DNA from: Clostridiales bacterium
Lineage (GTDB): Bacteria; Bacillota; Clostridia; Oscillospirales; JAAYOS01
DNA length: 33,094 bases
Direction: 5' to 3'
Assembly: GCA_012520195.1 (NCBI GenBank)
Contig: JAAYOS010000051.1
Coordinates: forward strand, 1 to 33,094
In this document: piece by piece, positions 3,022-31,388 of the stretch
Layout of the letters: each line of letters starts with the position of its first letter
Position numbering within the stretch: position 1 is the first letter of the stretch
Translations under genes and position numbers: made by a program
The notes under the pieces: model-generated
What the model was told of the DNA's origin: nothing
The model's input: the letters and a program-made list of their open reading frames with translations, nothing else
Databases searched by the model: none

Positions 3022-3060
3022 TAGTTTCTGAGTATGATATTGGTCGGGAGGGGACAACGC

Positions 3061-4497
3061 ATGCTTTTTGAAGAGTATTTCGCCACACATTCAGGCAAGA
3101 CGGTTGCGGTCTGTGGTCTGGGTGTAAGCAATCTACCCCTTATTCGCCTGCTTTGTGAGCGCGGAATCACGGTTGAGGCTAGAGACCGAAAGAGTGAAGA
3201 AGACCTCGGACGAACAGCTTCAGAAATCCGAGAAATGGGTGCAAAGCTAATCTGTGGACAGGGCTATCTCGATAATCTTGACGCGGATATCATATATCGT
3301 TCACCGGGAATACATCCCCACATAGAGGAATTTACGAACGCTATTCAAAGAGGTGCAGTTTTGACCTCCGAGATGGAAGCTTTTTTTGAGGTCTGTCCCT
3401 GCAGAACTATAGGAATTACTGGTAGTGACGGTAAGTCGACCACATCTACCATTATATCAAAGATGTTGGAGAAAGCCGGATACAGAGTCTGGTTTGGTGG
3501 AAATATTGGAGTACCCCTTCTTGACAGGGTGCCAGACATACAACGTGAACACATTGCGGTAATAGAATTATCCTCCTTCCAGCTGATGACAATGAGAAAA
3601 AGTCCCGATATCGCTGTTGTAACAAATGTGTCGGAGAATCATCTTGACGTTCACAAGGATTTTGAAGAGTATATTCTCTCAAAGAAAAATATTTTTCAAA
3701 ACCAAACAGCAGAAGGTATAACAGTATTAAACTGGGACAACGAAATTACTCGCAGTTATGCATCTTCAGCTAACGGTGAAGTGAGAATTTTTTCGTACTT
3801 TGATTCTTCAGAAACTATTGAAAGAGGCTTGCAGGAGCTCGGATTATGTGGAGAAGCCGCAGATAGAGCCCTTACTGTTACATTACAGGATAACTGCATC
3901 AATGTGCATGTAAGAGGCAGAAGTACAAGTATACTCGATGTGAATGAGATAAAGCTCCCCGGAGCGCACAATGTCGAAAACTATATGGCATGTGTCGCTT
4001 CGGTATATTCTCTTTGTTCAAACGATGATATTTCAGCGGTAGCCAGAACTTTCGAGGGTGTAGAGCATCGCCTTGAGTTTGTCTGTGAGTACGGGGGTGT
4101 GGGCTTCTACAACGACTCTATCGCTTCTTCACCCGCTCGCACTATTGCGGGACTCAAGTCCTTTGACAAGAAGGTCATACTTATCGCTGGTGGCTATGAT
4201 AAGCAGCTATCCTATAAGCCGCTTGCAGATGAGCTTGTTTCACACGTGAAGGCACTCGTCCTTTTGGGTCAGACTAAGGAAAAGATAAGGGCAGAAGTTG
4301 ATAGACTTGATCCTCCCGTTGAGTTCCCTGTGTATGAGACGTGCTCCCTGGAGGAGGCAGTCAAGGCCGCGTACATGGCTGCTCAAGCAGGAGATATAAT
4401 ACTGTTTTCGCCCGCAAGCGCCTCATTCGATATGTTTAAGAACTTCGAACAGAGGGGAAATGCTTTTAAAACCATTGCAAATAGTCTTGTTCAATAA
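3061..4497 (+). CDS. murD: UDP-N-acetylmuramoyl-L-alanine--D-glutamate ligase
   Basis: Adds D-glutamate to UDP-MurNAc-L-Ala in peptidoglycan precursor synthesis, in the cytoplasm. Features in order: an N-terminal Rossmann motif (AVCGLGVSN), a P-loop ITGSDGKSTT (Gly121-Thr127 region), the NVSENHLDVH motif of the Mur ligase middle domain, and a C-terminal domain with HNVENYMA, GVEHRLEF, IAGGYDKQLSY and SPASASFDMFKNFEQRG. YDKQ and SPASASFDMF are typical of MurD among the Mur ligases. The frame is open from 3034, but GGGAGGGG at 3046-3053 points to ATG 3061, giving 478 residues, slightly longer than the usual 450. It stands apart from other cell-wall genes here and is followed after 26 bases by the M42 operon, so it may be cotranscribed with it. 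Confidence 0.94.
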   Translation: MLFEEYFATHSGKTVAVCGLGVSNLPLIRLLCERGITVEARDRKSEEDLGRTASEIREMGAKLICGQGYLDNLDADIIYRSPGIHPHIEEFTNAIQRGAVLTSEMEAFFEVCPCRTIGITGSDGKSTTSTIISKMLEKAGYRVWFGGNIGVPLLDRVPDIQREHIAVIELSSFQLMTMRKSPDIAVVTNVSENHLDVHKDFEEYILSKKNIFQNQTAEGITVLNWDNEITRSYASSANGEVRIFSYFDSSETIERGLQELGLCGEAADRALTVTLQDNCINVHVRGRSTSILDVNEIKLPGAHNVENYMACVASVYSLCSNDDISAVARTFEGVEHRLEFVCEYGGVGFYNDSIASSPARTIAGLKSFDKKVILIAGGYDKQLSYKPLADELVSHVKALVLLGQTKEKIRAEVDRLDPPVEFPVYETCSLEEAVKAAYMAAQAGDIILFSPASASFDMFKNFEQRGNAFKTIANSLVQ

Positions 4498-4523
4498 TCT
4501 AGTTTCTAAGATAAGGATGTGTT

Positions 4524-5558
4524 ATGTTGGATATTAAAGCGGTACTGAGCGAGCTCAGCACAATGGCCGGGCCCTCCGGTTTTGAGCATGAGGTTGCCCG
4601 AAGAGTTTCAGATCTGATGCGACCTTATGTCGACGAGGTCAACACCGATGCACTGAGTAATGTTTTCGGGATAAAGCGCTCAAAGAAAGATGGAGCAAAG
4701 AAGCTTCTGATGTCGGCGCATATCGATGAGATTGGTCTGATGGTGACAAAAATAGAAGATGGTTTTTTGCGCTTCCGAACCATTGGTGGGATCGATCCGC
4801 GAGTTCTTCCTGCAAGGGAGATCAAGGTGCTTACCGAGCCACCTATGTACGGAGTGGTAGGTGCGCTCCCACCACACCTCCAGACAAGGGATGAGATGAA
4901 AAGCCCACTACCACTTGAAAAACTCAGTATAGATGTTGGGCTGTCACAAGAAGAGGCAGAAAGGCTCGTACCGATAGGAACGCCGGCAGTGTTCGTAGAA
5001 AAGACTGTAGAATTAGGTGAACAGCTGTTTTCGGGCAAGGCACTGGATGACCGTGCATGTTTTGTAATGCTTCTACGTATGTTAGAACTGCTTAAGGACG
5101 AAGAGCTTAGCGTAGACCTTGTTGTGCTCGCAAGTTCACAAGAAGAGGTAGGTACAAGAGGTGCGACAGTCGGTGCTTTCAGGCATGATCCTGATTACGC
5201 GGTTGCTGTTGATGTAACACACGGACAAACCCCTGATGCCCCCAAAGAAGGAACCTTTAAGATTGGCGAAGGCGTTCCAATAACAATGGGTCCGAACATT
5301 ACCCGTAAACTGTCCGATAGGCTAATCAAGCTTGCGAAGGCAAATGAAATACCCTGGCATCCGGAGGTAGCTGAAGGACGAACCGGTACCGATGCATGGC
5401 CAATGCAGGTCACGCGCAAAGGCGTTGCGACTGCACTTGTTTCACTGCCTCTTAAGTACATGCATACTCCATGCGAGGTTATAAGTATTGAGGATCTTGA
5501 AAACGGAGCTAAGCTATTAAGCGAGTTTGTAAAGAGCCTGGAAAGAGGTGAAGAGTAA
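4524..5558 (+). CDS. M42-family metallopeptidase, paralog 1
   Basis: Member of peptidase family M42 (TET-type aminopeptidases, once mis-named cellulase M/CelM), dinuclear metal enzymes that usually form large cytoplasmic dodecamers and trim peptides. Expected ligands are visible: SAHIDEIG with His66 and Asp68, LDDR near 175, SSQEEVGTRGA with Glu207-Glu208, AVDVTHG with an Asp, and YMHTPCE with His314. The 344-residue length is standard, and there is no signal peptide. It is first of three adjacent M42 genes, its stop sharing one base with the next start (TAATG). Compared with the next two it has GTDAWP where they have GTDAG, so the substrate pocket probably differs. Exact specificity cannot be read from sequence. 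Confidence 0.9.
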   Translation: MLDIKAVLSELSTMAGPSGFEHEVARRVSDLMRPYVDEVNTDALSNVFGIKRSKKDGAKKLLMSAHIDEIGLMVTKIEDGFLRFRTIGGIDPRVLPAREIKVLTEPPMYGVVGALPPHLQTRDEMKSPLPLEKLSIDVGLSQEEAERLVPIGTPAVFVEKTVELGEQLFSGKALDDRACFVMLLRMLELLKDEELSVDLVVLASSQEEVGTRGATVGAFRHDPDYAVAVDVTHGQTPDAPKEGTFKIGEGVPITMGPNITRKLSDRLIKLAKANEIPWHPEVAEGRTGTDAWPMQVTRKGVATALVSLPLKYMHTPCEVISIEDLENGAKLLSEFVKSLERGEE

Positions 5559-6589
5559 TGCTTTCTTTGGTCAAAGAGCTTTGCACACTAGATGGAGTCT
5601 CTAGCTTCGAGGACGCTGTACGCGACTATATAAAGAATAGGATTGCGCCCTATGTAGATGAGATGTATGAGGATGTAATGGGAAACCTCATTGTGCATAA
5701 AGTGGGAAGTATGGTTCCTGAAGGAAGAGTAATGTTTGCTGCGCACATGGACGAGGTCGGTTTTATTATTAAGGGGATCACAGATGAAGGGTACCTTCGC
5801 TTCAGAGCGGTAGGAGGCATCGATACCCGTGTGATAATTGGAAAGAGAGTGCTTGTCAGCAGTAACAAAGTACCCGGAATAATCGGAATAAAGGCCGTGC
5901 ACCTTGTCAAGGAGGAAGAGAGGAAGACTGTACCGAAAATTATCGATATGTACATCGATATTGGAGCCTCTGATAAGGAGAGCGCTGAGAAGTTGGTAAG
6001 CATTGGAGACTACGCTGTTTTCGATTCGGATCCACGTGAGTTTGGTAGCGGGCTCCTAAAAGCAAGGGCTATAGATGACCGTGTCGGATGTGCTGTAATG
6101 ATCAAGCTGATCGAAGATGGCCCGGATGTGGATGCCTGGTATGCCTTTACAGTTCAGGAGGAAGTCGGCACTCGTGGTTCAGGCCCTGCAGCGTATGAGG
6201 TCGAGCCTGAAATTGCCATTATACTTGAGGGAACAACAGCAGGAGACATGCCTGGTACCGAACCTCACAGAAAGGTCTGTGTCCCAGGTAAGGGAGCGGT
6301 CTTGCCGTTTATGGATTCATCTTCAATATACGACAAGGGACTGCATTCACTGTTGATAAAGACAGCGGAAGAGAACAACATTCCATGGCAACATAAGGAA
6401 TATGTGTCCGGTGGGACCGATGCGGGAACCATCCAAAGAACAGGCGGCGGAATTAAGGTCGGTGCAATCTCTGCGGCTGTACGATATATTCACTCCCCGT
6501 CATGTGTCGCTTCAGTTGAAGATTTTGAATCGATATATCGTCTTGCATATGAATTTTTGAAGAATTGCGGAGGTTTACAGAATGTTTGA
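5558..6589 (+). CDS. M42-family metallopeptidase, paralog 2
   Basis: Second M42 aminopeptidase of the operon, 343 residues. It has AAHMDEVG (His63, Asp65), IDDRVGC, VQEEVGTRGS with the Glu-Glu pair, and YIHSPS with the last His ligand. At the position where paralogs 1 and 3 carry Asp in AVDVT, this protein has Glu in ILEGTTAGD, a substitution that some M42 members also appear to carry, so it is probably still active but with altered metal geometry or specificity. It begins within the stop codon of paralog 1 and overlaps the start of paralog 3 by eight bases, so the three are almost certainly translated as one coupled unit. No export signal is seen. Confidence 0.9.
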   Translation: MLSLVKELCTLDGVSSFEDAVRDYIKNRIAPYVDEMYEDVMGNLIVHKVGSMVPEGRVMFAAHMDEVGFIIKGITDEGYLRFRAVGGIDTRVIIGKRVLVSSNKVPGIIGIKAVHLVKEEERKTVPKIIDMYIDIGASDKESAEKLVSIGDYAVFDSDPREFGSGLLKARAIDDRVGCAVMIKLIEDGPDVDAWYAFTVQEEVGTRGSGPAAYEVEPEIAIILEGTTAGDMPGTEPHRKVCVPGKGAVLPFMDSSSIYDKGLHSLLIKTAEENNIPWQHKEYVSGGTDAGTIQRTGGGIKVGAISAAVRYIHSPSCVASVEDFESIYRLAYEFLKNCGGLQNV

Positions 6590-7619
6590 TGTATTTGAAA
6601 CAATAGCAAAGCTTGCAGCGGTCCATTCTCCTGCCGGCTTTGAGACCCCCATTACCGAAGTACTGACCGAACTGGCAACACCTTACGCCGATGAGATAAG
6701 AGTCGATGCACTTGGTAATCTTATAGTCTACCGGAAGGCTGACGCAGTTCAGGACGGGGACTATGCACCCAAGAAAGTTATGCTCTCCGCCCATATGGAC
6801 TCAATCGGTATGATTGTCACCCATATCGATGAGAACGGATTTATTAGATTCTCAAATATCGGAGGTCTATCCCCAGCTACTATCCTCAACATTCCTGTAA
6901 AGTTCGCAAATGGAACAAGGGGAGTCGTTGCAAAGGATGGCAAGGTGGAGATCAAGGACCTGAAAATCAACGATCTCTATATCGATATAGGTGCTGGCTC
7001 AAAGGAGGAAGCACAGAAGTATGTAAGTGTTGCTGATGTGGCGGTATTCGCATCGGAGACATACAGAGTGGGACAGACACGCATCGTGTCTCCGTATATG
7101 GATGACCGTATTGCATGTGTAGTACTCTTGAAAGTACTAGAGTCTATAAGAGATAGTAAGAATGACTTGTATTTTGTGTTCTCCTCACAGGAAGAAGTCG
7201 GTATAAGGGGCGCCAAGACAGCCGCATTCAGCATTGAGCCGGATGTAGGTCTAGCTGTAGATGTAACATCTACCGGCGACACACCCGACATGAAGGTGCC
7301 GATGGAATGCTCCATTGGTAAGGGTGCGGCAATAAAGGTAATGGATGCCTCTCTCATATGTTCACCTAAGATAGTGCGTACTTTAGAAAGCATTGCAAAG
7401 GAATACGAAATCAAGCATCAGTTTGAGGTGCTACAACATGGAGGGACTGATGCAGGCGCTATCCAACTCGCTAGAGCGGGAGCACATGTAGGTGCAGTCT
7501 CTATACCGACACGCTATATCCACTCACCTCAGGAGATGTGTGACGAAGAAGATGTTAAGGCAGCTTGCGCTCTGATTGGATTGTTTGTAGCAAATGAGCT
7601 AGAGCCTAAAACCAATTGA
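6582..7619 (+). CDS. M42-family metallopeptidase, paralog 3
   Basis: Third M42 aminopeptidase of the operon, 345 residues. Metal-site motifs are SAHMDSIG (His71, Asp73), MDDRIAC, SSQEEVGIRGA, AVDVTSTGDTPD and YIHSPQE. It has Ser where the other two have Glu after the metal Asp (HMDS rather than HIDE/HMDE), and an insertion around residues 48-60 (KADAVQDGDYAPKK) compared with paralog 2. The start overlaps the previous gene, with GGAGG at 6571-6575. A strong terminator follows 28 bases after the stop. Three divergent copies in tandem may act as one mixed-specificity peptide-degrading complex or as three separate TET particles; this is inference. Confidence 0.9.
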   Translation: MFDVFETIAKLAAVHSPAGFETPITEVLTELATPYADEIRVDALGNLIVYRKADAVQDGDYAPKKVMLSAHMDSIGMIVTHIDENGFIRFSNIGGLSPATILNIPVKFANGTRGVVAKDGKVEIKDLKINDLYIDIGAGSKEEAQKYVSVADVAVFASETYRVGQTRIVSPYMDDRIACVVLLKVLESIRDSKNDLYFVFSSQEEVGIRGAKTAAFSIEPDVGLAVDVTSTGDTPDMKVPMECSIGKGAAIKVMDASLICSPKIVRTLESIAKEYEIKHQFEVLQHGGTDAGAIQLARAGAHVGAVSIPTRYIHSPQEMCDEEDVKAACALIGLFVANELEPKTN

Positions 7620-7743: not shown

Positions 7744-8679
7744 CTATGAAGCTTCTTCATAGGTCTCATTCTGAGAAAAGGTCTCAGCCTGTGAAAATCT
7801 ATTCAGAAGCTCCTCTCTGTTTGCGTTGAGGTCGATCTCAAGCACACTTCTTCCGGATTTCGAAGCATATCGCCATGTATCATCAAGAGGGACCTGTATC
7901 TGTTCGATTTCAAGCTTATCATCGAATAATACAGCTGTACTGAGGTTGATAATCTCTTTTAGTTTCATATTTGTGCCCGCATATTTCAATGTGGACAAGA
8001 GGAGCTTCCAGAGCTCTTTTGGGTTACTGTTGTTTCTTATGCTGCTATAGAGCCCAACTATAACATCGCGTTGCCTGCGGGTTCGCTCAAAATCAGCGTT
8101 TCCCACACTCCGATTACGGCAGTGAGTTAGCGCTTGAGTTCCCACGAGCACGTATACGCCGTCCTCTTCAGGGAGTCTATCTTCCTCAATCCTAGCGTGT
8201 CGATTTATGTATACAGCTTCCTCTCTTGTTATGTGAATTTCTATTCCCCCAATCGAATCGACTATTGATATAAGGCCGAAAAAATCAATCAAAACATAGC
8301 TCTCTATATCGAGTGAAAAGTTTTCGTTTAGAGTATCGATCAGCATTTCCGGCCCTCCAATAGCATGGGCTGCATTCAGACGGTTATAGCCATGATTGGG
8401 TATATCTATCCAAATATCCCTCATGAAAGATGTCAGGCAAGCTTTATTAGTGTTTGGGTTATATGAAAGCAGCATCATGACATCAGACCTACCGGTCTCT
8501 CGTTCGTTATCATCTACATCGGTTCCAATCACCAGAATATTGTGGATCGTTTTAGCTATGCCAATCGAATCATTATCCATAGCCATTTCGCTAGAACCAT
8601 CGCCCTCCTGCGTTGAAACCCGACTCGGCGCATTGGTGGAGCCCTCATTAGTATCTTCGGCTGTCGCAAATATGGGCAT
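7744..8679 (-). pseudogene. LCP-family (LytR-CpsA-Psr) protein, N-terminus lost
   Basis: LCP enzymes transfer teichoic acids or capsule polymers from lipid carriers to peptidoglycan outside the cell. The catalytic domain appears intact (about residues 47-215): ILVIGTDVDD, GRSDVMMLLS, TSFMRDIWIDIP, YNRLNAAHAIGG, then RNRSVGNADFERTRRQRD with the conserved arginines. What is missing is the cytoplasmic tail and transmembrane helix that all typical LCP proteins have. The frame opens with a polar linker whose first codons are antisense to the CpsD fragment beginning at 8672. The ATG at 8679 has no ribosome binding site; the bases before it are C-rich. I infer a gene truncated at about 8660-8675 and probably not expressed or exported. 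An intact short protein is possible but unlikely. Confidence 0.75.
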
Positions 8680-9217
8680 AGCACTGGCAAGAGGGGGGAA
8701 GAGGGTTCTGTTGATCGACTGTGATTTGAGAAAGCCTCAACTACATGAGAAATTTCGAATCGCAAAGAACTCTGTAACATCATTTTATGGATTTGAGACA
8801 AAGAGTGAGCGGAGAAAGTGCATAATTGAAGTATTTAGTGGACTTTATGTACTTCCGTTCATTAATGACATAGATAAGAACCACACTTTTTTCCAAACTA
8901 GCGGCTTTTCAAATGCTGTCCATGATTTTGAGAGTGAATATGACATCATAATCTTTGATTCAGCACCGGTCTATGACGTCACCGACTCCTTAAGTCTTGT
9001 CGGACTCTCTGATGCTGTGATCATGGTGATCAAACAGGACGAGGCCCTTATAAGCGAACATATAAAATCTACCGAAAAGCTCAGTGCGGTTGGCGGCAGA
9101 TTTCTAGGTTCAATATTTAATGATGTGAAGTATGTCATGCAGAAATCAAGATATATTGATAAGTATAGCTATCACCGGTTCACCAATAATGGAAAAACCG
9201 GGCAGCTGCCCGGTTAG
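8672..9217 (+). pseudogene. CpsD/Wze-type tyrosine kinase, 5' part lost
   Basis: Bacterial tyrosine kinases of this type, with a Wzz/CpsC partner, control chain length of exopolysaccharide. The frame contains NMGIALARGGKRVLLIDCDL (Walker A' region), YDIIIFDSAPVYDVTDSL (Walker B) and a tyrosine-rich tail (YIDKYSYHRF). The Walker A P-loop (expected GEGKST form) immediately upstream is absent: the sequence there belongs to the oppositely oriented LCP gene. ATG 8672 exists but has no ribosome binding site. Without the P-loop it cannot bind ATP normally, so I call a pseudogene. Its last codons (QLPG) run into the terminator of the convergent cysteine desulfurase operon, suggesting that the 3' end was also altered. 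Confidence 0.8.
9196..9215 (-). terminator. Terminator of the comM-desulfurase operon, overlapping the stop codon
   Basis: AACCGGGC-AGCT-GCCCGGTT is a perfect 20-base palindrome. On the minus strand it is followed by TTTTTCC, a proper U-tract, and it overlaps the TAA (9214-9216) of the cysteine desulfurase gene. It also overlaps the end of the CpsD fragment on the plus strand. Confidence 0.85.
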
Positions 9218-10317
9218 GATAAATCTTTAAGCGCTTCGACAAGAGCGTCTATATCGTCATCTGTGTTGTCTTTGGAAAAGCTTATACGGATAGAGGATTT
9301 TATTAGTCTTGGATTCACCCTCATCGCTTCTAGAACTGTACTGCTTTTGCCGCGATTGCATGCCGAACCTCCTGAGACAAAGATTCCCCTGCTTTCCAGC
9401 ATCCTGATAAGGACCTCGGTGGGGTACTTAGGTACAGCAATGTTTACGATAGCGCCTTCCGCTGCGATAACAGTAACGCCGGAGAGTTTTTCAATACCCT
9501 TAAGCAGGCTTTCACGCAAGTGAGAGACATGGTCTATGTTGCTCTTCAATGCTTGGTTTGCTTCGCGGACCGCCACGCCAAATCCTGCGATAGCCGGTAC
9601 TGCCTCGGTACCAGATCTGAGTCCCGATTCCTGTCCTCCGCCATGTGACATAGGCTTTAGCCTAATACCGTTTCGGACATAGAGAGCGCCAGCGCCCTTT
9701 GGACCATGGATCTTGTGTGAGCTCACGCTGAGCATGTCTACTCCGAGTGTCTGAACATCGAATTCATACTTCATGTAGGCCTGTACGGCATCGGTGTGAA
9801 AAATGATATCGGGGTGGATTGGTCTAACTAGCTTTACCACATCGGCAACAGGTTGAAGTGCTCCGGTCTCATTGTTGCATAGCATCATTGACACGAGTAT
9901 TGTATCCGGACGGATAGCTTCGACTATTCTTTCAGGATCGATTTTTCCGTTCTTTTCAGGTGCCACAAACGTTACATCAAATCCATTTTCGCCTAGATAC
10001 TTGATAGTGTTTGCAACAGAAGGGTGCTCAATGGCGGTGGAAAGAATGTGCCTGCCCTGTCTTTGCATAAGGTTAGCTGTCTGCAGAATTGCAATATTAT
10101 TTGATTCAGTACCCCCGGAAGTAAATAGGATTTCATTGGGCTTGCAGTTGAGGGAGGCTGCGAGCTCTTTTCGTGCATCCTCTACGATGTTCTCGGCCTC
10201 AATACCCATTGAATGAACAGAGGAGGGGTTTCCGAATCTTATAGTCATCGCGTCCATTACTGCTTCTGCAGCGCCGGTAGATACTTTTGTTGTCGAAGCA
10301 TTGTCCAGGTAATGCAT
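9214..10317 (-). CDS. Cysteine desulfurase (NifS/IscS class)
   Basis: PLP enzyme that takes sulfur from cysteine as a persulfide for Fe-S clusters, thiolated tRNA or other uses. Visible are the N-terminus YLDNASTTKV, TSGGTESNN (PLP phosphate site), HTDAVQA (Asp and Gln to the PLP ring), SSHKIHGPKG with the Schiff-base Lys, SGLRSGTE, and the loop GSACNRGKSS with the catalytic Cys. Length is 367 residues, a little shorter than IscS. It is the last gene of a minus-strand operon after comM and an unknown membrane protein, without a neighbouring IscU-like scaffold gene. MnmA, a well-known sulfur acceptor, is encoded 9 kb away. AAGGAG lies 12 bases before the ATG, a rather long spacing. Confidence 0.92.
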   Translation of the reverse strand: MHYLDNASTTKVSTGAAEAVMDAMTIRFGNPSSVHSMGIEAENIVEDARKELAASLNCKPNEILFTSGGTESNNIAILQTANLMQRQGRHILSTAIEHPSVANTIKYLGENGFDVTFVAPEKNGKIDPERIVEAIRPDTILVSMMLCNNETGALQPVADVVKLVRPIHPDIIFHTDAVQAYMKYEFDVQTLGVDMLSVSSHKIHGPKGAGALYVRNGIRLKPMSHGGGQESGLRSGTEAVPAIAGFGVAVREANQALKSNIDHVSHLRESLLKGIEKLSGVTVIAAEGAIVNIAVPKYPTEVLIRMLESRGIFVSGGSACNRGKSSTVLEAMRVNPRLIKSSIRISFSKDNTDDDIDALVEALKDLS

Positions 10318-10360
10318 GCTAAGCCATGGCTCCTTATATTAGTTTCAAAGACTCCTAGAC

Positions 10361-11251
10361 TCAGTGTCTAAGCATATGGTTCTTTCTAACTCTTGTGTTG
10401 TACAAGGTCTCTTCGATTATATAGTGCGTTGTATAGACCTTCTTTTTCTCCTTATAGGTGGACTCATGCGTTATCTCTTCATCGATTTCGGCGCACACTT
10501 TGTCTATGTCACCGAACTTGGCTATCCTAATATAGTTGGGGTGGATATTGGGCTTAAACAAACAGAGGATACTATAGATAAGAAAAGTAGGGAAGAGTAT
10601 CGAGAAAAAGATGACCAGCCCAAAGTCAACAAACTCATCCTCAACTGTAAGGCCTCTGAGGTCGACGATATATGAAGGGATGTTGGCTCCCGCGTTCTCA
10701 GTCATGCCTAGGTCATGGCCGACGAATAGGGGAAGCTCAGAGAAAACAGCACCCTTTATTGTATCTCCAGGAATTATACTATAGTCTGCAGGGAGCAGGG
10801 CAACATACTTGACTCCTTCTATAGATATAAAACCGACCTTAAATTCCGTATTTGGAGGGTAGGAGTGTGTTTGAGGATTGGCGTAGAGTATTTCCAGGGT
10901 CTTACTTTCAGTGACGCCATAGCCAAAACCCGCATCCTCAAAGCTCTCAGCAGTAAACTGAAAACGATAGCTTGCTCCGTCAACAAAGAGTTCGTTGATA
11001 CGAAGAAAAGGCGGCATAACTACCATAAGGTCTCGAGTATTGAATGCTTCCGATTCTGGCTCTATAGTGAGTACTCTCGAATTAGATCTAAGATTGGCAG
11101 CATCCAGCTCATGGCCTGCTGAGTGGGCGTTAAGGAGATAGATATAGGAGTCCGAGACGTATAGAATACAGAGTATAAAAAGCACAATAGCCCAAACGAG
11201 CATTGCAATAGTATTCTTCCGCGTTTTATTATAGATATATCCTCTGGTCAA
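10361..11251 (-). CDS. Two-helix membrane protein of unknown function
   Basis: I do not recognise a named function; it may belong to a DUF6709-like group, but I cannot confirm that. The 296-residue protein has one hydrophobic helix near the N-terminus (about residues 13-35, IAMLVWAIVLFILCILYV), an extracytoplasmic-looking segment of about 170 residues without cysteine, a second strong helix (about 212-236, GLVIFFSILFPTFLIYSILC) and a charged C-terminal tail rich in Lys/Glu. Its start overlaps the end of comM by four bases, and the cysteine desulfurase starts 43 bases after it, so the three genes form one transcription unit. Partners are not evident from sequence. Confidence 0.75.
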   Translation of the reverse strand: MTRGYIYNKTRKNTIAMLVWAIVLFILCILYVSDSYIYLLNAHSAGHELDAANLRSNSRVLTIEPESEAFNTRDLMVVMPPFLRINELFVDGASYRFQFTAESFEDAGFGYGVTESKTLEILYANPQTHSYPPNTEFKVGFISIEGVKYVALLPADYSIIPGDTIKGAVFSELPLFVGHDLGMTENAGANIPSYIVDLRGLTVEDEFVDFGLVIFFSILFPTFLIYSILCLFKPNIHPNYIRIAKFGDIDKVCAEIDEEITHESTYKEKKKVYTTHYIIEETLYNTRVRKNHMLRH

Positions 11252-12765
11252 AGTGAATTACCTCCTGCAGTACGGTATTGAAGCGCTTCTGCGATGTGGT
11301 ACGGTTTGATATGGGGGGACTTTTCAATATCTGAAATCGTACGGGCAAGTTTTAGCACCCTGTCATACGATCGGGCGGTAAGGCCCAATTTGTCGAATGC
11401 GGACTTAAGGAGAGCTATACCTGAGGAGTCCGGTTTACAGAATCTCTCAATGAGATTCGAAGGGAGATGCGCGTTTGATTCGATGCCGAACTCACTGTAT
11501 CGCTCCTTGGCGAGAGAGCGCGCTTCTGTTACGCGTTTTCGAATTGAGGCGGACCCTTCGCCGGAAGGTTTGCCGGACAGTTCATCAAAATCTAGCGGGG
11601 GGACGTAAACCGTCATATCGATTCGGTCCAGGAGTGGGCCTGATACTTTACCCAAATAGGATTTAATTTGCGACTCTGAACAGACGCAGGGGTGAGTCGG
11701 ATGACTATTCCAGCCGCATTTGCATGGATTCATGGCACAGATAAGTATAAATTTGCAGGGATATCGAACTGTGCCTGAAACACGGGATATAACTATTGAA
11801 CCATCCTCAAGTGGCTGTCTCAGAGTTTCAAGTGAGCGGCGCTCAAACTCTGGAAGCTCATCCAGAAACAGTACTCCGTTGTGGGCTAAAGATATTTCGC
11901 CGGGTTTTGGAACATTACCGCCGCCTGATAAGCCGGCAACTGAAATTGAGTGATGTGGCGACCTGAAGGGGGGATAGGTCAAAAGAGGTCTATCCCTAGT
12001 TACTAGTCCTGCCACTGAGTGAATTGCAGTAGATTCTATTGCTTGTCTATCAGTTAGGGGAGGGAGTATAGAGGGGATCCTTTTAGCGAGCATACTCTTT
12101 CCAGAGCCCGGTGGTCCGACAAGAAGAACATTATGACAACCGGCTGCTGCAATTTCCAATGCGCGCTTTACGCTGTCCTGTCCCTTTACATCCGAAAAAT
12201 CGGGAAGAACGCTGCTCTCACCATTTACAACAGGGTTTTTTACCGGGTCAAGCAAAACCCTGCCGTTGAGGTGGCGGACAATCTCGCCTCCATTTCGCGG
12301 GGCGTAAATTGTAATACCGTCAACAAGCGCCGCCTCCGATGCGTTGTCACTCGGAACGTAGAGCTCCTCTATTCCAGCATCGCGGGCAGCGAGAACCATA
12401 GGAAGTACTCCATTGACCGGCCGCAGCTCACCGTTAAGCGAAAGCTCACCGATGAATGCAGAGTTTTTCTGAGGCATTATGATTTGGCCCGAAGCGGTGA
12501 GCAGTCCAAGCAGGATGGGGAGGTCATAGACAGACCCCTCCTTTCTGGTGTCAGCTGGCGCAAGATTTACTGTGATTCTACCTTTTGGAAAGTTAAATCC
12601 GCTATTTCGAAGAGCTGCCCGCACTCTCTCCCGGGATTCACGAACTGTAGTGTTCGGAAGCCCGACAATATCGAAGGAAGGCAGCCCCTGAGACAGAAAA
12701 CACTCAACCGTCACCATATATCCGCTAATTCCGAAGATGCCTGTAGAATTGATGTTGCTCACCAT
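11248..12765 (-). CDS. comM: YifB/ComM-family Mg-chelatase-like AAA+ ATPase
   Basis: In Gram-negatives ComM is a helicase that promotes branch migration of incoming DNA during natural transformation; the role in Bacillota is less clear. The N-terminal Lon-protease-like domain (IVGLPNTTVRESRERVRAA, RITVNLAPADTRKEG) is followed by an AAA+ module with Walker A GPPGSGKSMLAKRIPSILPP, Walker B GVLFLDELPEF, a CKCG...CVC zinc-ribbon-like insert and LDRIDMTV, and then a C-terminal Mg_chelatase_C helical part (LTARSYDRVLKLARTI). The frame continues 23 codons upstream, but AAGAGGTG (12772-12779) followed by ATG at 12765 gives the usual family N-terminus MVSNINSTGIFG (505 residues). Confidence 0.92.
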   Translation of the reverse strand: MVSNINSTGIFGISGYMVTVECFLSQGLPSFDIVGLPNTTVRESRERVRAALRNSGFNFPKGRITVNLAPADTRKEGSVYDLPILLGLLTASGQIIMPQKNSAFIGELSLNGELRPVNGVLPMVLAARDAGIEELYVPSDNASEAALVDGITIYAPRNGGEIVRHLNGRVLLDPVKNPVVNGESSVLPDFSDVKGQDSVKRALEIAAAGCHNVLLVGPPGSGKSMLAKRIPSILPPLTDRQAIESTAIHSVAGLVTRDRPLLTYPPFRSPHHSISVAGLSGGGNVPKPGEISLAHNGVLFLDELPEFERRSLETLRQPLEDGSIVISRVSGTVRYPCKFILICAMNPCKCGWNSHPTHPCVCSESQIKSYLGKVSGPLLDRIDMTVYVPPLDFDELSGKPSGEGSASIRKRVTEARSLAKERYSEFGIESNAHLPSNLIERFCKPDSSGIALLKSAFDKLGLTARSYDRVLKLARTISDIEKSPHIKPYHIAEALQYRTAGGNSL

Positions 12766-12824
12766 AATGCTCACCTCTTGGTAGTGGACAGAATAATGGA
12801 ATCTTATGCCAATGATACAACCAT

Positions 12825-12853
12825 ATTCTACCACTATTAAAGAGGCGCGTCAA
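12825..12853 (-). promoter_or_regulatory. Promoter of the comM operon
   Basis: Minus-strand TTGACG (12848-12853) and TAGAAT (12825-12830) are 17 bases apart, each one mismatch from consensus, placed about 60 bases before the comM start codon. Confidence 0.65.
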
Positions 12854-13154: not shown

Positions 13155-16100
13155 ATGGCTCGTAAAAAGAAGACCATGGACGGCAACACAGCCGCAACGC
13201 ATGTATCCTATGCATTTACCGATGTTGCGAGTATTTACCCGATTACGCCCTCGTCGGTAATGGCTGAGCTTGCCGACAGTTGGTCAGCTAACAACATGAA
13301 GAACATCTTCGGTCAGAACGTCAAGGTTCAGGAGATGCAATCTGAGGCAGGAGCTGCTGGCGCCGTTCACGGCTCTCTGGCAGCAGGAGCCCTCACCACA
13401 ACATTTACCGCTTCCCAGGGACTGCTTCTAATGATTCCCAACATGTACAAAATCGCAGGCGAGCTCCTTCCGGGCGTTATCCACTGTTCAGCACGTACGG
13501 TAGCATCGCATGCGCTCAGCATATTCGGAGATCACTCTGATGTAATGGCATGCAGAGCCACTGGATTTGCTATGTTGGCCTCAACAAACCCTCAAGAGGT
13601 AATGGATCTTGGTGCTGTTGCTCATCTGGCAGCGATTAAGGGAAGGGTACCTTTCCTCCATTTCTTTGATGGATTCAGGACCTCACACGAGCAGCAGAAG
13701 ATCGAAGTGTGGGACTACGATACACTGGCTAAAATGGTAGACATGGACGCAGTTGACCGTTTCCGTAAGCATGCCCTAAGCCCTGACAGACCTGTCCTTC
13801 GCGGTTCTGCTCAAAATGGTGATATCTTCTTCCAGGCACGTGAAGCAAGTAACTCATATTACGATGCTCTCCCCGCAGTTGTCGAAGAATATATGGATAT
13901 GGTCAATGCCGAGATCGGCACAGATTACAAGCTGTTCAACTACTACGGCTCGCCCGACGCAGAGCATGTAATCGTAGCTATGGGTTCAGTCTGTGACACC
14001 ATTGAAGAGACAATCGACTATCTGATCGCTAACGGTGAGAAAGTTGGACTAATAAAAGTCCGTCTGTACCGTCCGTTTGTAACAGAGAGATTTATCGAAG
14101 CAATTCCCAAGACTGCAAAGTCAATTTCTGTTCTTGACCGGACAAAAGAACCCGGCTCACAGGGAGAGCCCCTCTATCTCGATGTTATTACTGCTCTCAG
14201 CAATAGCGGTCTGGACAATATCAAAGTATACGGCGGACGCTACGGCCTGAGCTCAAAGGACACCCCACCCTCAAACATTATCGCAGTATATAAAAATATG
14301 CAGTCCGATAACCCGAAGAGGATGTTCACAGTCGGTATCGAGGACGATGTAACAAACCTGTCACTCCCAATTTTAGAGAATCCAAACACAACTCCCGAGG
14401 GCATTGTTTCATGCAAGTTCTGGGGGCTTGGCTCGGATGGAACTGTCGGAGCAAACAAAAACTCCGTCAAGATTATCGGTGACCACACCGACATGAACGT
14501 ACAGGCATACTTCTTCTACGATTCAAAGAAATCCGGCGGAATAACGATTTCGCACCTCCGTTTCGGAGACAAGCCGATAAAATCAACATACTATATCTCA
14601 CGGGCCGACTTTGTTGCATGCCATAACCCCTCTTACATAGGTAAGTACAAGATGGTACAGGATGTAAAGCCCGGGGGTACATTCCTCGTTAACTGCCCTT
14701 GGACACAGGAGAACATCTCCGATTACCTGCCCGCAGAGGACAAGCGCTATATTGCTGAAAACAACATTAAGCTATACGTTGTAGATGGCGTAAATATTGC
14801 AAAAGAGATCGGACTTGGCGGCCGTATCAATATGATCCTAATGTCGGGGTTCTTTAAGCTGTCTAATATCCTTCCAATTGATGAAGCGGTTGAATATATG
14901 CGCAAAGCAGTTGTTGATTCCTACGGAAGACGCGGCGAGGCCGTTGTAAACATGAACTATAAGGCGATCGAAGCCGGCGTATCTAGCCTCATCGAGATCG
15001 AAGTACCTGAAGACTGGAAGAATGCAACGGACGACAAGAAGCCTGCACAGCTCACCGGAGACCGCGAGGAGCTCCTCGAGTTTGTCGAAAAGATCATGAT
15101 TCCTGTAAACAACCAGCAGGGCGACAGTCTGCCGGTCTCTGCGTTTGTAGATTCAGCGGACGGCACATTCCCCCAGGGCTCATCAGCCTATGAGAAGCGC
15201 GGTATCGCTGTCGATGTACCAAAGTGGCTTCCTGACAACTGCATTCAGTGCTCGCAGTGCTCACTCGTCTGCCCACACGGCGTAATCAGAGTCTTTGTTT
15301 CCAACGAGGAAGAGGTTAATAACGCACCTGAAGGCTATAAGTCTAAGAAGATGGTCGGTAAAGATCTCGGTCACCTGCAGTACTCGATTATTCCATCGGT
15401 GCTTGACTGCACAGGTTGCGGCGTATGCGCAAATGTATGCCCTGCCAAGAACAAAGCACTGGTTATGACTCCCCTTGATGAGGAGCGTTCGAATCAGAAA
15501 CACTTTGACTATGCATTCAAGGAGCTCTCTGATAAGCCAGAAGTAAGGGCTGCATTCCCGACAACCACACTTAAGGGCACGCAGTTCAAGCAGCCACTGC
15601 TTGAGTTCTCAGGTGCATGTGCTGGCTGTGGTGAGACACCATATGCTAAGCTGATCACACAGCTATTCGGAGACAGAATGATCATTGCAAACGCCACAGG
15701 ATGTACTTCCATTTGGGGCGGATCAGCACCTGCAACTCCGTATACCGTTAACCGTGAAGGCAAAGGTCCCGCATGGGCAAACTCCCTCTTTGAGGACAAC
15801 GCAGAGTTCGGATTCGGAATGCTGCTTGCAACCGAAGCACGTCGTGAAGCACTAGTTGCAAAGGTTCAAAAACTTATTGAAATTCCATACTGCGATGAGC
15901 GTATCATAGAGACAGGTAAGGCCTGGCTTGAGACCATGAATGACGGTGATGCCTCCAAACAGTCAGCAAAAGACTTTGTTGAAGCACTAAACCTTCAGAA
16001 GGACGACTGTGGCTGTGAAGCATGTGCACTGGCTAGAGAGGTGCTCAATGAGTCTGATATGCTAGTCAAGAAGTCCATATGGGTATTCGGCGGTGACGGT

Positions 16101-16724
16101 TGGGCATACGATATCGGCTTTGGCGGATTAGACCATGTAATCGCCTCGGGTGAAGATATCAACATCTTTGTCTTCGATACCGAAGTTTACTCAAACACCG
16201 GTGGTCAGGCATCCAAGGCCTCCCAGATCGGACAGGTTGCACAGTTTGCCGCAGCAGGTAAAGCACAGGCGAAGAAGAGCCTCAGTGAAATTGCAATGTC
16301 GTACGGCAACGTCTATGTCGCACAGGTTGCTATGGGTGCTAACATGAACCAAGTCATTAAGGCACTTAATGAGGCCGAGAGCTATCCGGGTCCATCACTG
16401 GTTATCGGATATTCACCCTGCATAAACCACGGAATTAGGGGTGGAATGACCAACTCCATGGCCCAGTCAAAAGCAGCCGTAGAGGCAGGTTACTGGCACC
16501 TGTTCCGCTATGACCCACGCCTCAAGGCTGAAGGCAAGAGCGCTTTCATGCTTGACAGCAAGGCTCCCACAAGCTCTTACAAAGACTTCCTAGCAGCTGA
16601 GGTCCGCTACTCAAGTCTCATGCGTTCCTTCCCAGATCGTGCTGAGGAGCTGCAGGAGAAGGCAGAGCAGCATGCCAAGGAGCGCTATGAAAAACTTGTG
16701 CGCCTACAGGAACTGTACAAATAG
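13155..16724 (+). CDS. nifJ: Pyruvate:ferredoxin (flavodoxin) oxidoreductase
   Basis: Oxidises pyruvate to acetyl-CoA and CO2 with electrons passed to ferredoxin or flavodoxin, the central step of anaerobic pyruvate metabolism. This is the single-chain form (1189 residues, near the usual 1170-1200). Order of parts: the pyruvate/pyrimidine-binding domain (YPITPSSVMAELAD near residue 25), the CoA/middle domain, two 4Fe-4S motifs CIQCSQCSLVCP (about 696) and CTGCGVCANVCP (about 751), CAGCGE (about 821) for the proximal cluster, and the TPP domain with GDGWAYDIGFGG (about 979) and TEVYSNTGGQ. Later cysteines (CGCEAC) are also present. AAGGAGG is followed by ATG 13155. It is monocistronic with its own promoter and a terminator region downstream; codon use suggests high expression. 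Confidence 0.97.
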   Translation: MARKKKTMDGNTAATHVSYAFTDVASIYPITPSSVMAELADSWSANNMKNIFGQNVKVQEMQSEAGAAGAVHGSLAAGALTTTFTASQGLLLMIPNMYKIAGELLPGVIHCSARTVASHALSIFGDHSDVMACRATGFAMLASTNPQEVMDLGAVAHLAAIKGRVPFLHFFDGFRTSHEQQKIEVWDYDTLAKMVDMDAVDRFRKHALSPDRPVLRGSAQNGDIFFQAREASNSYYDALPAVVEEYMDMVNAEIGTDYKLFNYYGSPDAEHVIVAMGSVCDTIEETIDYLIANGEKVGLIKVRLYRPFVTERFIEAIPKTAKSISVLDRTKEPGSQGEPLYLDVITALSNSGLDNIKVYGGRYGLSSKDTPPSNIIAVYKNMQSDNPKRMFTVGIEDDVTNLSLPILENPNTTPEGIVSCKFWGLGSDGTVGANKNSVKIIGDHTDMNVQAYFFYDSKKSGGITISHLRFGDKPIKSTYYISRADFVACHNPSYIGKYKMVQDVKPGGTFLVNCPWTQENISDYLPAEDKRYIAENNIKLYVVDGVNIAKEIGLGGRINMILMSGFFKLSNILPIDEAVEYMRKAVVDSYGRRGEAVVNMNYKAIEAGVSSLIEIEVPEDWKNATDDKKPAQLTGDREELLEFVEKIMIPVNNQQGDSLPVSAFVDSADGTFPQGSSAYEKRGIAVDVPKWLPDNCIQCSQCSLVCPHGVIRVFVSNEEEVNNAPEGYKSKKMVGKDLGHLQYSIIPSVLDCTGCGVCANVCPAKNKALVMTPLDEERSNQKHFDYAFKELSDKPEVRAAFPTTTLKGTQFKQPLLEFSGACAGCGETPYAKLITQLFGDRMIIANATGCTSIWGGSAPATPYTVNREGKGPAWANSLFEDNAEFGFGMLLATEARREALVAKVQKLIEIPYCDERIIETGKAWLETMNDGDASKQSAKDFVEALNLQKDDCGCEACALAREVLNESDMLVKKSIWVFGGDGWAYDIGFGGLDHVIASGEDINIFVFDTEVYSNTGGQASKASQIGQVAQFAAAGKAQAKKSLSEIAMSYGNVYVAQVAMGANMNQVIKALNEAESYPGPSLVIGYSPCINHGIRGGMTNSMAQSKAAVEAGYWHLFRYDPRLKAEGKSAFMLDSKAPTSSYKDFLAAEVRYSSLMRSFPDRAEELQEKAEQHAKERYEKLVRLQELYK

Positions 16725-24158: not shown

Positions 24159-25325
24159 CTATGCGTATCTTTTTCTCTTTGCCACCACTAATGCAACTGC
24201 AAACATAGCCACAGCAAAGCCAAGCTGTATTAGGATGGAGGAAAATACTGATTCCAGTTGTTCAAATCCAAAGCTTGTAAGCCCTGCTATTTCATTATTT
24301 GCTTTCACATACCAGTAAGAAGGGGTAAAGCTAGCAATTCGTAGAACTGATTGACTAATAAGTTCCTGTGGTACGAAAACACCACTGATGAAACTGGGGC
24401 CTAGTGTTACTACATTACAAACCGCAGATAGTGCTTCCTGATTGGTAACCGCTGTACCTATGAGATAACTAAGGCTAGTGCCGCAAATCATAAATATAAA
24501 GGAGTTAAGCACGAAATAGAGTGTTGCTGGAGTGAGACTGTTCTTGAAATTAAACATTATGCAAAAACCAACCATAATAAACCAGGTCACCATAGCAAAT
24601 GTTAGGTTTGCTAAGATGAACTGCATGTTGATTCTTGATGTGCTAATGGGTGAGCATGCATTTCTTCGTTTTATATCTTTATCACTGAATACTACCATCA
24701 GTGCGCTCATACCCATAACTAAAACACCTAGCATCGAGTATGACAAGTAATTGAAATAGAAGTTAGCATAGGAGGTATCGGCCTTATTTGCCCTAGTATC
24801 ATAGAGTTCAACATTTGTAGTAACCGATAGGTCTTTAAGCACCTTGGAAACAAGTTCTTCTTCGGCTATGTTTTCAACATTAGTAAGATACAGCCTAGCT
24901 AAGTCAAAATATTTCTCTACGCTGATGTCTACATATGCACTGGAGTAGGATTCGGGAATAGTGGTCTTTTGGATCTTGACATCCTCACCCCCCATGAACC
25001 TTTCGGTAAAACCGTTTGGTATGTAGAGGGCATATGTGACCCTTCTGAAGTAAAGCGCGTCTTGCAGAGCCTCTGTATCTCTTTCTATTTCAACAAAGTT
25101 TGCTACTTTGCTGAGTTCTTCCTTGAGACCATCCACTAGGGGTCCCGTCTCATCGCTAATAAACGCTATATCCGTCTTTGTAGGGGTAAATGAAGCCATC
25201 TCTTTACTTTCATTTGACATAGAGGAGGTTGCAAGGATCGATACGCCTAAGAACACAACTACATATATCATAAGAGTTGGTATATTGTCCTTGATGATTT
25301 TCAAGCATAGTTTAAATACTTGCAT
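24159..25325 (-). CDS. ABC-2 type transporter permease (second permease)
   Basis: A 388-residue ABC-2 family membrane subunit with one N-terminal helix (about 15-33), a long extracytoplasmic domain (about 40-190) and five or more C-terminal helices (for example YSMLGVLVMGMSALMVVF, FVLNSFIFMICGTSLSYLIG, LIQLGFAVAMFAVALVVA). This topology is that of the YhgE/DrrB/LnrN-like exporters. It overlaps the preceding permease gene by 14 bases and forms an operon with it and with the ATPase gene. The substrate is unknown; by analogy with LnrLMN of B. subtilis it may remove membrane-active antibiotics. Its sequence differs clearly from the first permease, so the transporter is probably a heterodimer in the membrane. 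Confidence 0.85.
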   Translation of the reverse strand: MQVFKLCLKIIKDNIPTLMIYVVVFLGVSILATSSMSNESKEMASFTPTKTDIAFISDETGPLVDGLKEELSKVANFVEIERDTEALQDALYFRRVTYALYIPNGFTERFMGGEDVKIQKTTIPESYSSAYVDISVEKYFDLARLYLTNVENIAEEELVSKVLKDLSVTTNVELYDTRANKADTSYANFYFNYLSYSMLGVLVMGMSALMVVFSDKDIKRRNACSPISTSRINMQFILANLTFAMVTWFIMVGFCIMFNFKNSLTPATLYFVLNSFIFMICGTSLSYLIGTAVTNQEALSAVCNVVTLGPSFISGVFVPQELISQSVLRIASFTPSYWYVKANNEIAGLTSFGFEQLESVFSSILIQLGFAVAMFAVALVVAKRKRYA

Positions 25326-26421
25326 ATTTACGCCTCCTCACAATAAAGTAGGTACCAAACCAAAAAACGAGAATAAACATTGTCAATAGGGCCATATTGA
25401 GCCAATATCTTGAGAGTGAGTCAAAGAAATGTAGGGAGTACAGTGCATCGGTCAACAGATTTACCGGATTTAGGTAGGATAGAATAGGAACGTTCTCAGA
25501 TACTGAATACTTAATGCTGTGCATCATCATACCCGCAAGGAAAGAGCAGACCATTGAAAAGGTAATGAGTATTGCGATTTTTAGGCCTTCTTTTTTCTTA
25601 ATAAGTGCACTTACAATTGCTCCAAAGGAGACACCAGCAATAGAACCTATAATGGTAGTAAGTAGCACGTATCCTATTCTAGCTCCAAAGTCAACCTTGA
25701 GTACAAGTATCAGATAGATCAAAAGAATTAACAGCTCAACTATGTGAATGAAAAAGGATGCACACATGCTATAAATAAAAGCTTTGAGCTTATGTGTAGG
25801 GGCGATGTTGATTCTTGCTGCAATTGAGGAGTTATCTGCTTGAATTTCCATTACTTCTCTGAGGCCGAAGAGACTTCCATAGAAACATGCCATAGCAATC
25901 AGACTATAGAAATAGTTAAGGTGTATATTTGGCTCTGCTTTTGATATAGAGACCTCTTCCAGAACTTCTTTTCCTATGCTATCAAAATCCTGGGCTCTCA
26001 CCGCCATTGCTGCGGACGATGTTTGCATGAACCTGTCAAGGAAAATCTTAATGATGTTCTGTCTAAGTCCTGACTTTGAAACCACTAATCTAACGGGAGT
26101 TTCAGCCACCATGTATCCTGCAATTTCGCCATCTTGTAGTAGCCGAGCAGCATTCTCAAGTGTTACTGTTTGGAGATTAAATATCCGCTCTTCACCTGTG
26201 GAGACTTCATTAAGAACAGTCTTAAAGATTTGATTGTTATTATAATTTTCATCGTTAACGACTGCTACTTCAATAGGTGAGAATCTCTCGTTATTTCCAA
26301 TGTTGGCTAGCGCTAACTGGAAGAAGGTCGCTAAGACCAGAGGGAATATCATAGTCCAGAAAATCGTGACTTTGTCCTTGAAAAGGCATTTGAGCCTGTA
26401 TCTGAAAATATGTACAAACAT
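25312..26421 (-). CDS. ABC-2 type transporter permease (first permease)
   Basis: A 369-residue ABC-2 membrane subunit. It starts MFVHIFRYRLKCLFKDKVTIFWTMIFPLVLATFF, a classic beginning with an amphipathic segment and first helix, then an extracytoplasmic region (about 45-170) and five C-terminal helices (for example ILITFSMVCSFLAGMMMH near 280, WLNMALLTMFILVFWFG near 340). The gene follows the ATPase gene after 11 bases and overlaps the second permease. It pairs with that permease to form the channel. No substrate-specific feature is recognised. Confidence 0.85.
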   Translation of the reverse strand: MFVHIFRYRLKCLFKDKVTIFWTMIFPLVLATFFQLALANIGNNERFSPIEVAVVNDENYNNNQIFKTVLNEVSTGEERIFNLQTVTLENAARLLQDGEIAGYMVAETPVRLVVSKSGLRQNIIKIFLDRFMQTSSAAMAVRAQDFDSIGKEVLEEVSISKAEPNIHLNYFYSLIAMACFYGSLFGLREVMEIQADNSSIAARINIAPTHKLKAFIYSMCASFFIHIVELLILLIYLILVLKVDFGARIGYVLLTTIIGSIAGVSFGAIVSALIKKKEGLKIAILITFSMVCSFLAGMMMHSIKYSVSENVPILSYLNPVNLLTDALYSLHFFDSLSRYWLNMALLTMFILVFWFGTYFIVRRRKYASI

Positions 26422-26432
26422 AAGTTCCCCTC

Positions 26433-27365
26433 CTAATCCCTAAGCTCTTTGCCAGTGATTTCGAGGAACACGTCATTAAGCGTGGGCAGCTCTGAGTAGA
26501 TTGTTCCAAATTGTATACCTTCCTGTTTAGCGAAGTCCAAAACACTCTCCAAGTTGTTTTTGCCTTTAGTGGACTTTATGACAAGATTGCTGCCGTTGTA
26601 CTCAGCAGACAGGACATTTGGAAGGTTCCCTGCCGCTGAAATTTGCTCAGGTGTCAAGCCGTATGTCTGAAGAGTGATCTTTTCACCGATAGTTATCATG
26701 TTCTTGAGCTCTTCCTTTGTTCCTGATGCAATTGCCTTGCCCTTATCGATGATGAGGATACGGCTGCAGATCTGCTCAACTTCCTCCATGTAATGGGACG
26801 TATAAACGATGGTTGCACCTTGTCGGTTAAGCTCCAAAATTCCTTCCAGGATTTTATTGCGGCTCTGAGGATCTACTGCAACTGTAGGTTCATCTAGAAT
26901 TATGAGCTTTGGTTTATGTGCAATACCACATGCTATGTTCAATCTTCTAAGAAGACCGCCGCTTAGTTTCTTTGGCTGGAACTTAACATAGTCCTCAAGC
27001 CCAACAAACTGTATAGCTTCATCCACCAGTTGTTTTCTTTTAACTTTATCCGGAACATAGAGTCCGCAGAAATAATCTATATTCTCATAGACGGTTAGTT
27101 CCTTATATACGGCTACGTTCTGCATGACAATTCCAATATCTCGCTTGGTATCGTAAGACTCCGGTGTCATAGGCTTATTAAAGACTTCAATATCACCTTT
27201 GTCGAATTTGAGTAATGAGAGGATACAGTTTATTGCAGTGGTTTTTCCTGACCCGTTTGGACCTAGAAGCCCAAAGATTTCACCCTCCTTAACATCTAGT
27301 GATAGGTGATCCAACGCAACTAGATTTCCGTAGCGTTTTACAAGGTTTTTCACTCGAATAACCAT
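26433..27365 (-). CDS. ABC transporter ATP-binding protein (DrrA/LnrL-like)
   Basis: A 310-residue nucleotide-binding subunit that powers the two ABC-2 permeases encoded after it. Walker A GPNGSGKTT (about residues 35-43), Q-loop (VMQN), a signature written LSGGLLRRLN rather than LSGGQ, Walker B LIILDEPTVAVDPQ and an H-loop (YTSHYMEE) are all present. The C-terminal ~80 residues are the extra domain common in drug and lantibiotic exporters of the DrrA class. GGGAGG precedes the ATG at 27365. The promoter region is shared with the divergent kinase-response regulator pair and carries a palindrome (27429-27456), which suggests control by that two-component system. Confidence 0.9.
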   Translation of the reverse strand: MVIRVKNLVKRYGNLVALDHLSLDVKEGEIFGLLGPNGSGKTTAINCILSLLKFDKGDIEVFNKPMTPESYDTKRDIGIVMQNVAVYKELTVYENIDYFCGLYVPDKVKRKQLVDEAIQFVGLEDYVKFQPKKLSGGLLRRLNIACGIAHKPKLIILDEPTVAVDPQSRNKILEGILELNRQGATIVYTSHYMEEVEQICSRILIIDKGKAIASGTKEELKNMITIGEKITLQTYGLTPEQISAAGNLPNVLSAEYNGSNLVIKSTKGKNNLESVLDFAKQEGIQFGTIYSELPTLNDVFLEITGKELRD

Positions 27366-27428
27366 ATTTATTTCCTCCCTTGTTTAGTATGTAACCACAG
27401 TATACCCAACCCTCTACTTCATTGTAAG

Positions 27429-27456
27429 TGTCATGAATCACTATATTATGGTGACA
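27429..27456. promoter_or_regulatory. Inverted repeat between divergent ABC and two-component genes
   Basis: TGTCA (27429-27433) and TGACA (27452-27456) are arms of an imperfect palindrome in the 120-base divergent gap. Position and symmetry suit a binding site for the LuxR-type response regulator encoded at 28566. I could not assign firm -35/-10 boxes for either direction. Confidence 0.4.
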
Positions 27457-27485
27457 AATGTAATCTTAAGTGTTAACATATTCAT

Positions 27486-28559
27486 ATGATGTACTTGAAA
27501 AGTCTGGTGGATAAGGCCTTAATATTTGTATGTACCCTAATAATTTATCTAGCTTTCTCTGAACCTAGAATTGCCACAGTGCTTGTGTCCATAGCTTTTG
27601 GTGGCTTTCTAAGCTATGTGGACAGTAAAAAGCTGAAAGCTATGCTGATTATAGGCTTTTTAGTGCTGTGCTTTTATTACCCAGTTCTGATGTTTTTCCT
27701 GCCGGTAATCGTTTATGACATGTTCTTTTACAGCTATCAAGCTATAAGTGTTGTAGTGCTTATACCCTTAGTCAACTTTGTTCAAAGTCAACCAATTCAG
27801 TCCTCGTTAACGGTAATAGTACTCTCAATACTTTCAGTCTTGCTCAGGTACCGCAGTAACATATATAGCAAGCTTTACTCAGAACATATTAATTTATCAG
27901 ACGCAACACGCGAGATGTCCATGACCCTTACAGATCAAAAGAAAAAACTTATTGAGAAACAGGACTATGAGCTAGGTCTAGCAACTCTAAATGAGCGTAA
28001 CCGTATAGCCCGCGAAATTCACGACAGTGTTGGCCACCTTCTGTCAAGGGCAATCCTGCAAATTGGTGCAATGCTCAGTACAAAAACTGATGAGGGTACT
28101 ATTCAAGGCCTTAGACAGCTCAATGAGACGCTCTCAAACGCTATGAACAGTATACGTGAGAGCGTCCATCAACTGCACGCAGATTCCATAGACCTAAACA
28201 CTCAGATACATCAGCTAATCGAATCCTTTACCTTTTGTGATGTGAAATTCACTTATCAGCTAGACAGTTTACCTGACATCAAGATTAGGTATGCATTTAT
28301 TGCAGTAGTTCAGGAAGCACTTGCTAATATTATGAGGCACTCAAACGCAACTCAGGCTTCAATCACACTGAGGGAACATCCAGCCTTTTATCAGCTAATA
28401 ATTAGTGATAACGGAGTCGTGATGAACCATAACCCTGAGTTATCTGGAGGTCTAGGACTCAAAAGCATGGCGCAGAGGGTAAATGCTCTCAACGGTAACA
28501 TCAGCTTCAACACTAATCAAGGCTTCCAAGTATTTATAACTGTACCAAAGGGGGATTAA
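27486..28559 (+). CDS. NarL-type sensor histidine kinase
   Basis: A 357-residue membrane kinase. Residues 1-115 hold four to five hydrophobic helices with short loops and no large sensor domain, as in intramembrane-sensing kinases of antibiotic responses (LiaS, LnrJ). Then comes a HisKA_3 module with NRIAREIHDSVGHLLSRA (phospho-acceptor His179), an N box QEALANIMRHSN (about 276) and a G box GGLGLKSMAQR (about 321). It starts at ATG 27486 (or 27489); no clear ribosome binding site precedes it, so translation may be weak or the transcript leaderless. Its stop is six bases before the response regulator. It is likely the sensor for the divergent ABC exporter. Confidence 0.9.
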   Translation: MMYLKSLVDKALIFVCTLIIYLAFSEPRIATVLVSIAFGGFLSYVDSKKLKAMLIIGFLVLCFYYPVLMFFLPVIVYDMFFYSYQAISVVVLIPLVNFVQSQPIQSSLTVIVLSILSVLLRYRSNIYSKLYSEHINLSDATREMSMTLTDQKKKLIEKQDYELGLATLNERNRIAREIHDSVGHLLSRAILQIGAMLSTKTDEGTIQGLRQLNETLSNAMNSIRESVHQLHADSIDLNTQIHQLIESFTFCDVKFTYQLDSLPDIKIRYAFIAVVQEALANIMRHSNATQASITLREHPAFYQLIISDNGVVMNHNPELSGGLGLKSMAQRVNALNGNISFNTNQGFQVFITVPKGD

Positions 28560-28565
28560 GAGAAC

Positions 28566-31368: not shown

Positions 31369-31388
31369 AAAGGGGATAGGTGATATTT

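Follow-up and report, generated by a model that had tools for sequence, protein, structure and literature searches.

The window, a stretch of 33,094 bases that makes up one entire contig (C140) of a draft genome (2.45 Mb in 209 contigs, 96% complete, 4% contaminated), carries two genes that lie head to head at about 8650–8670 and have both lost their 5' ends. On the minus strand (7744–8652) is a gene for an LCP (LytR-CpsA-Psr) glycopolymer transferase without its N-terminal membrane anchor. On the plus strand (8654–9217) is the 3' part of a gene for a CpsD/CapB-type BY-kinase without its Walker A motif. The original prediction had described this double 5' truncation at a single junction, at about 8660–8675, and had named both families; profile matches agree with both names (PF03816 for the LCP protein, TIGR01007 for the kinase), and the limits of homology put the break no more than a few tens of bases from the predicted position.

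The LCP domain is encoded by a minus-strand open reading frame at 7744–8679. The Pfam profile LytR_cpsA_psr (PF03816) matches it with an E value of 3.5 × 10−32 (112 bits against a cut-off of 24.6) over profile positions 1–148 of 150, and by this match the catalytic domain is complete. The best PDB match is 3pe5 (E = 1.4 × 10−35), with TagT, TagU, TagV and Cps2A also matched. LCP family members typically carry an N-terminal transmembrane anchor, with the domain outside the cell (PMC7831098). The absence of this anchor, also part of the prediction, was borne out when we tested the window protein for one: there is no hydrophobic segment before the domain. The maximum 19-residue hydropathy (Kyte-Doolittle) in this region is −0.23. 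Of 27 relatives, 26 reach 1.7 to 3.7, and the exception (L187) is an open reading frame that starts inside the domain. A same-genus orthologue, 52% identical, in G001 (the closest genome and the sole member of the genus among those examined) is whole with its anchor intact, and about 75 of its N-terminal residues, including the transmembrane segment, are absent from the window protein. A search for the missing start in the rest of the assembly found none; this search was weak, because the region is poorly conserved. Two further LCP genes lie elsewhere in the genome (contigs C25 and C63). Searching contigs with the window LCP protein alone returned no relative, and with a two-sequence LCP profile, five distant LCP genes were the only matches besides the known same-genus relative.

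The kinase gene matches TIGR01007 at model positions 32–203 of 204, starting from window position 8654, with 75.2 bits, which is below the 108-bit cut-off. When the window kinase is aligned with nine CpsD proteins, it has 'SLVS' in the column where the Walker A motif 'EGK[ST]' stands, and homology begins only after that column, in keeping with the predicted loss of the Walker A loop. The same alignment shows that Walker A' ('VLLIDCDLRKP') and Walker B ('YDIIIFDSAP') are kept. At the C-terminus, four tyrosines are dispersed over YVMQKSRYIDKYSYH, a weaker feature than in the CpsD on contig C80 of the same genome. PDB matches include VpsO (6u1q, E = 5.2 × 10−13) and Staphylococcus aureus CapAB (3bfv, E = 4.4 × 10−11). 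We sought the missing kinase start in the assembly with a profile of CpsD starts and found only the intact copy on C80 (E = 3.8 × 10−25). Because that copy, itself a member of the profile, was found, such a start would be seen if it were present elsewhere. A Wzz/CpsC search of the genome likewise gave a match on C80 only and none adjoining the window kinase; C80 retains an intact CpsC-CpsD-CpsB cluster. In plasmid and phage collections we found only distant kinases (about 25–33% identity) and no related locus.

Two side observations concern these kinase genes. On C80 (L064, G000:C80), similar long repetitive surface-protein genes flank the CpsC-CpsD-CpsB cluster at both contig ends (1–1718 and 6977–8702), the right-hand one with SLH-like repeats, and these genes may explain why the contig ends there. 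In the window, a perfect 20-base palindrome (AACCGGGCAGCTGCCCGGTT, 9196–9217) lies inside the last kinase codons and is terminator-like for the leftward NifS operon; furthermore, the kinase and NifS genes overlap by 4 bases at their stop ends. Given the palindrome and the overlap, the 3' end of the kinase gene may also be altered.

Aligning both proteins to their families, a check proposed with the prediction, delimits the junction to 8607–8672. LCP homology to the same-genus orthologue is traceable up to 8607, with the linker plausibly extending to about 8650–8670, and kinase homology starts at about 8654. The sequence thus places the break within 8610–8672, most likely at 8650–8672; its exact base is not fixable because the LCP linker is not conserved. 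A search of the genome's own assembly, allowing up to three mismatches, found the junction sequence once. We detected no direct or inverted repeats at the junction, no mobile or insertion element at the break, and no tRNA genes in the window. Promoter scans of the junction region gave matches at chance level only. Ribosome binding sites are missing from both genes, as predicted: none of the candidate starts (8679 on the minus strand; 8396, 8632, 8635 and 8672 on the plus strand) is preceded by a Shine-Dalgarno-like sequence, whereas most of the other window genes have one. Base composition and codon usage give a sharp foreign signature on neither side, although kinase GC is slightly low (0.41). 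Both truncated frames are open, with codon use inside the range of the other window genes, at its low end.

The two genes belong to different conserved blocks. To the left, MurD and three tandem M42 peptidase genes (3034–7619, plus strand) form a block that contains the LCP gene, in the order found in G001 (contig C114) and other genomes of the family. The three M42-type genes (4524–7619) are tandem paralogues that follow MurD, and the set is kept in most family genomes. In G001, the whole LCP orthologue follows MurD and the three M42 genes on the opposite strand, as in the window, except that a GGDEF gene lies between them. Its divergent neighbor there is a BTAD-type transcriptional regulator, and CpsC and CpsD are absent; the names BTAD-type regulator and GGDEF are our reading of the sequences. 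We sought this regulator in the window's own genome, in a search run without a positive control, and obtained no match. To the right of the kinase, genes for a NifS-type cysteine desulfurase, a membrane protein and a YifB/ComM-type ATPase (9214–12834, minus strand) start a second block that continues with PFOR (13155–16724). This order is kept in the family (G002–G007), several genomes having an extra gene between NifS and the membrane protein. Farther right are two ABC-2-type permease genes and an ATPase gene that adjoin a divergent histidine kinase and response regulator (24159–29186), and two adjacent, clearly paralogous serine beta-lactamase/esterase-like genes (30193–32588).

Wherever this can be checked in family genomes, the NifS-PFOR block never adjoins the MurD-M42 block. 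In G004, C1 carries one block and C4 the other. The distances from the blocks to the closest ends of these contigs are about 42 kb and 57 kb, which puts the two at least about 100 kb apart. G001 gives no such comparison within the genus: a search of its assembly for a NifS orthologue of this type returned only a 42% paralogue, and its YifB contig ends inside YifB. Protein identity to G001 is 76–83% for the M42 peptidases, 86% for PFOR and 76% for MnmA. Both flanks, being similarly close to G001, belong to its genus, which makes a cross-species chimera unlikely.

Because the blocks are separate in the family and the LCP orthologue stands without CpsC or CpsD, we conclude that the junction joins two unrelated loci, and the simplest reading is that they were brought together either by rearrangement or by misassembly. 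On the left, the joined part would be the 3' end of the MurD-M42-LCP locus; on the right, it would be the 3' part of a CpsD-type kinase gene beside the NifS-YifB-PFOR block. We give about an even chance to a recent chromosomal rearrangement. A recent illegitimate event (a deletion, inversion or translocation) would have removed the start of the LCP gene with the membrane anchor, together with the start of the kinase gene, its Walker A motif and whatever preceded it. This reading draws on the intact same-genus LCP orthologue in the same MurD-M42 context. It would also account for the absence of the kinase start and of a second CpsC from the assembly, and for the lack of a repeat at the junction. 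In this reading, the join would be present in the organism, and it would be recent because both remaining frames are still open. Against this, a misjoin would also look like this, with cut genes that abut and show no decay, repeat or insertion element. The window is, moreover, a complete contig from a draft in 209 contigs, and the junction was seen in no second genome among those examined.

Misassembly, which the prediction had allowed for, is only slightly less likely than a rearrangement: the contig would join two non-adjacent places of the same genome, with both genes whole in the organism. The fragmentation of the draft, a break that falls where two separate synteny blocks meet and the undecayed state of both frames all point this way. 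G001, the relative in the same genus, was binned from an anaerobic-digester metagenome and is, judging by its isolate name, part of a Megahit-assembled biogas collection (PMC7038595), and chimeric contigs have been reported in assemblies of complex metagenomes, mainly at low to intermediate coverage (PMC7881036). However, the junction sequence is unique in the assembly even with up to three mismatches. For a de Bruijn misjoin, a repeat common to both places would normally be required. Furthermore, neither the lost start of the kinase gene nor a further CpsC turned up anywhere in the assembly, which slightly favors a real event, although the other halves could be unbinned.

The original prediction had preferred to derive both truncations from a single deletion in a divergent capsule locus in which the LCP gene and CpsC-CpsD would have stood head to head. 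We now regard this as improbable. The head-to-head geometry and the related functions of the two genes speak for it, and the single same-genus LCP locus does have a divergent neighbor; that neighbor, however, is the BTAD-type regulator, and the LCP gene there is part of the MurD-M42 block. No relative shows the proposed arrangement: an intact divergent locus was found in neither LCP nor CpsD neighborhoods. Near LCP relatives in the order, there was no CpsC or CpsD in the stretches examined, which for some short contigs span only a few kilobases, and the one LCP gene near the CpsD relatives examined is co-directional and downstream. Among the family genomes examined, other than the window's own, no CpsD-family match exceeds the cut-off; the weak matches look to us like MinD/ParA-type ATPases.

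That both short proteins function as they are, as a soluble LCP protein and a kinase-like protein lacking the P-loop, with a bidirectional start region, is very unlikely, because open frames with codon use within the window's range, though at its low end, are offset by starts without ribosome binding sites, an LCP without signal or anchor, a kinase that has lost Walker A and promoter-like matches at chance level; their expression from a bidirectional region in new roles is less credible still.

If the join is real, the LCP product would stay in the cytoplasm, neither exported nor anchored, and would be inactive, given the organization of the LCP family (PMC7831098), and the kinase product would be unable to bind ATP and likewise inactive, given the motif layout of BY-kinases (PMC4574921). 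Both genes would thus probably be pseudogenes. With CpsC-CpsD-CpsB intact and two other LCP genes present, the loss is probably tolerated and its consequence probably small. A real rearrangement would mean that an uncultured clostridial lineage has recently lost an LCP transferase and a BY-kinase, one of each, while intact paralogues were kept. A misjoin would be a warning against inferring gene neighborhood or gene loss across position 8650 of the contig. Neither reading opens a new question.

The window LCP protein shares a complete catalytic domain with known LCP transferases (TagT/TagU/TagV, Cps2A) and differs from them in having no N-terminal transmembrane anchor. Similarly, the kinase has the Walker A' and Walker B motifs of BY-kinases (the CpsD/CapB proteins and Wzc in its cytoplasmic domain) and a few C-terminal tyrosines that may correspond to the family's tyrosine cluster, but lacks Walker A, everything upstream of it and an adjacent CpsC partner. 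The junction is a real sequence feature and an ordinary kind of damage rather than a new system. Compared with pseudogene pairs at rearrangement breakpoints or contig misjoins, it has nothing special, its break being without a detected repeat or mobile element; like them, it is a pair of genes severed at a single site, on the boundary between two synteny blocks.
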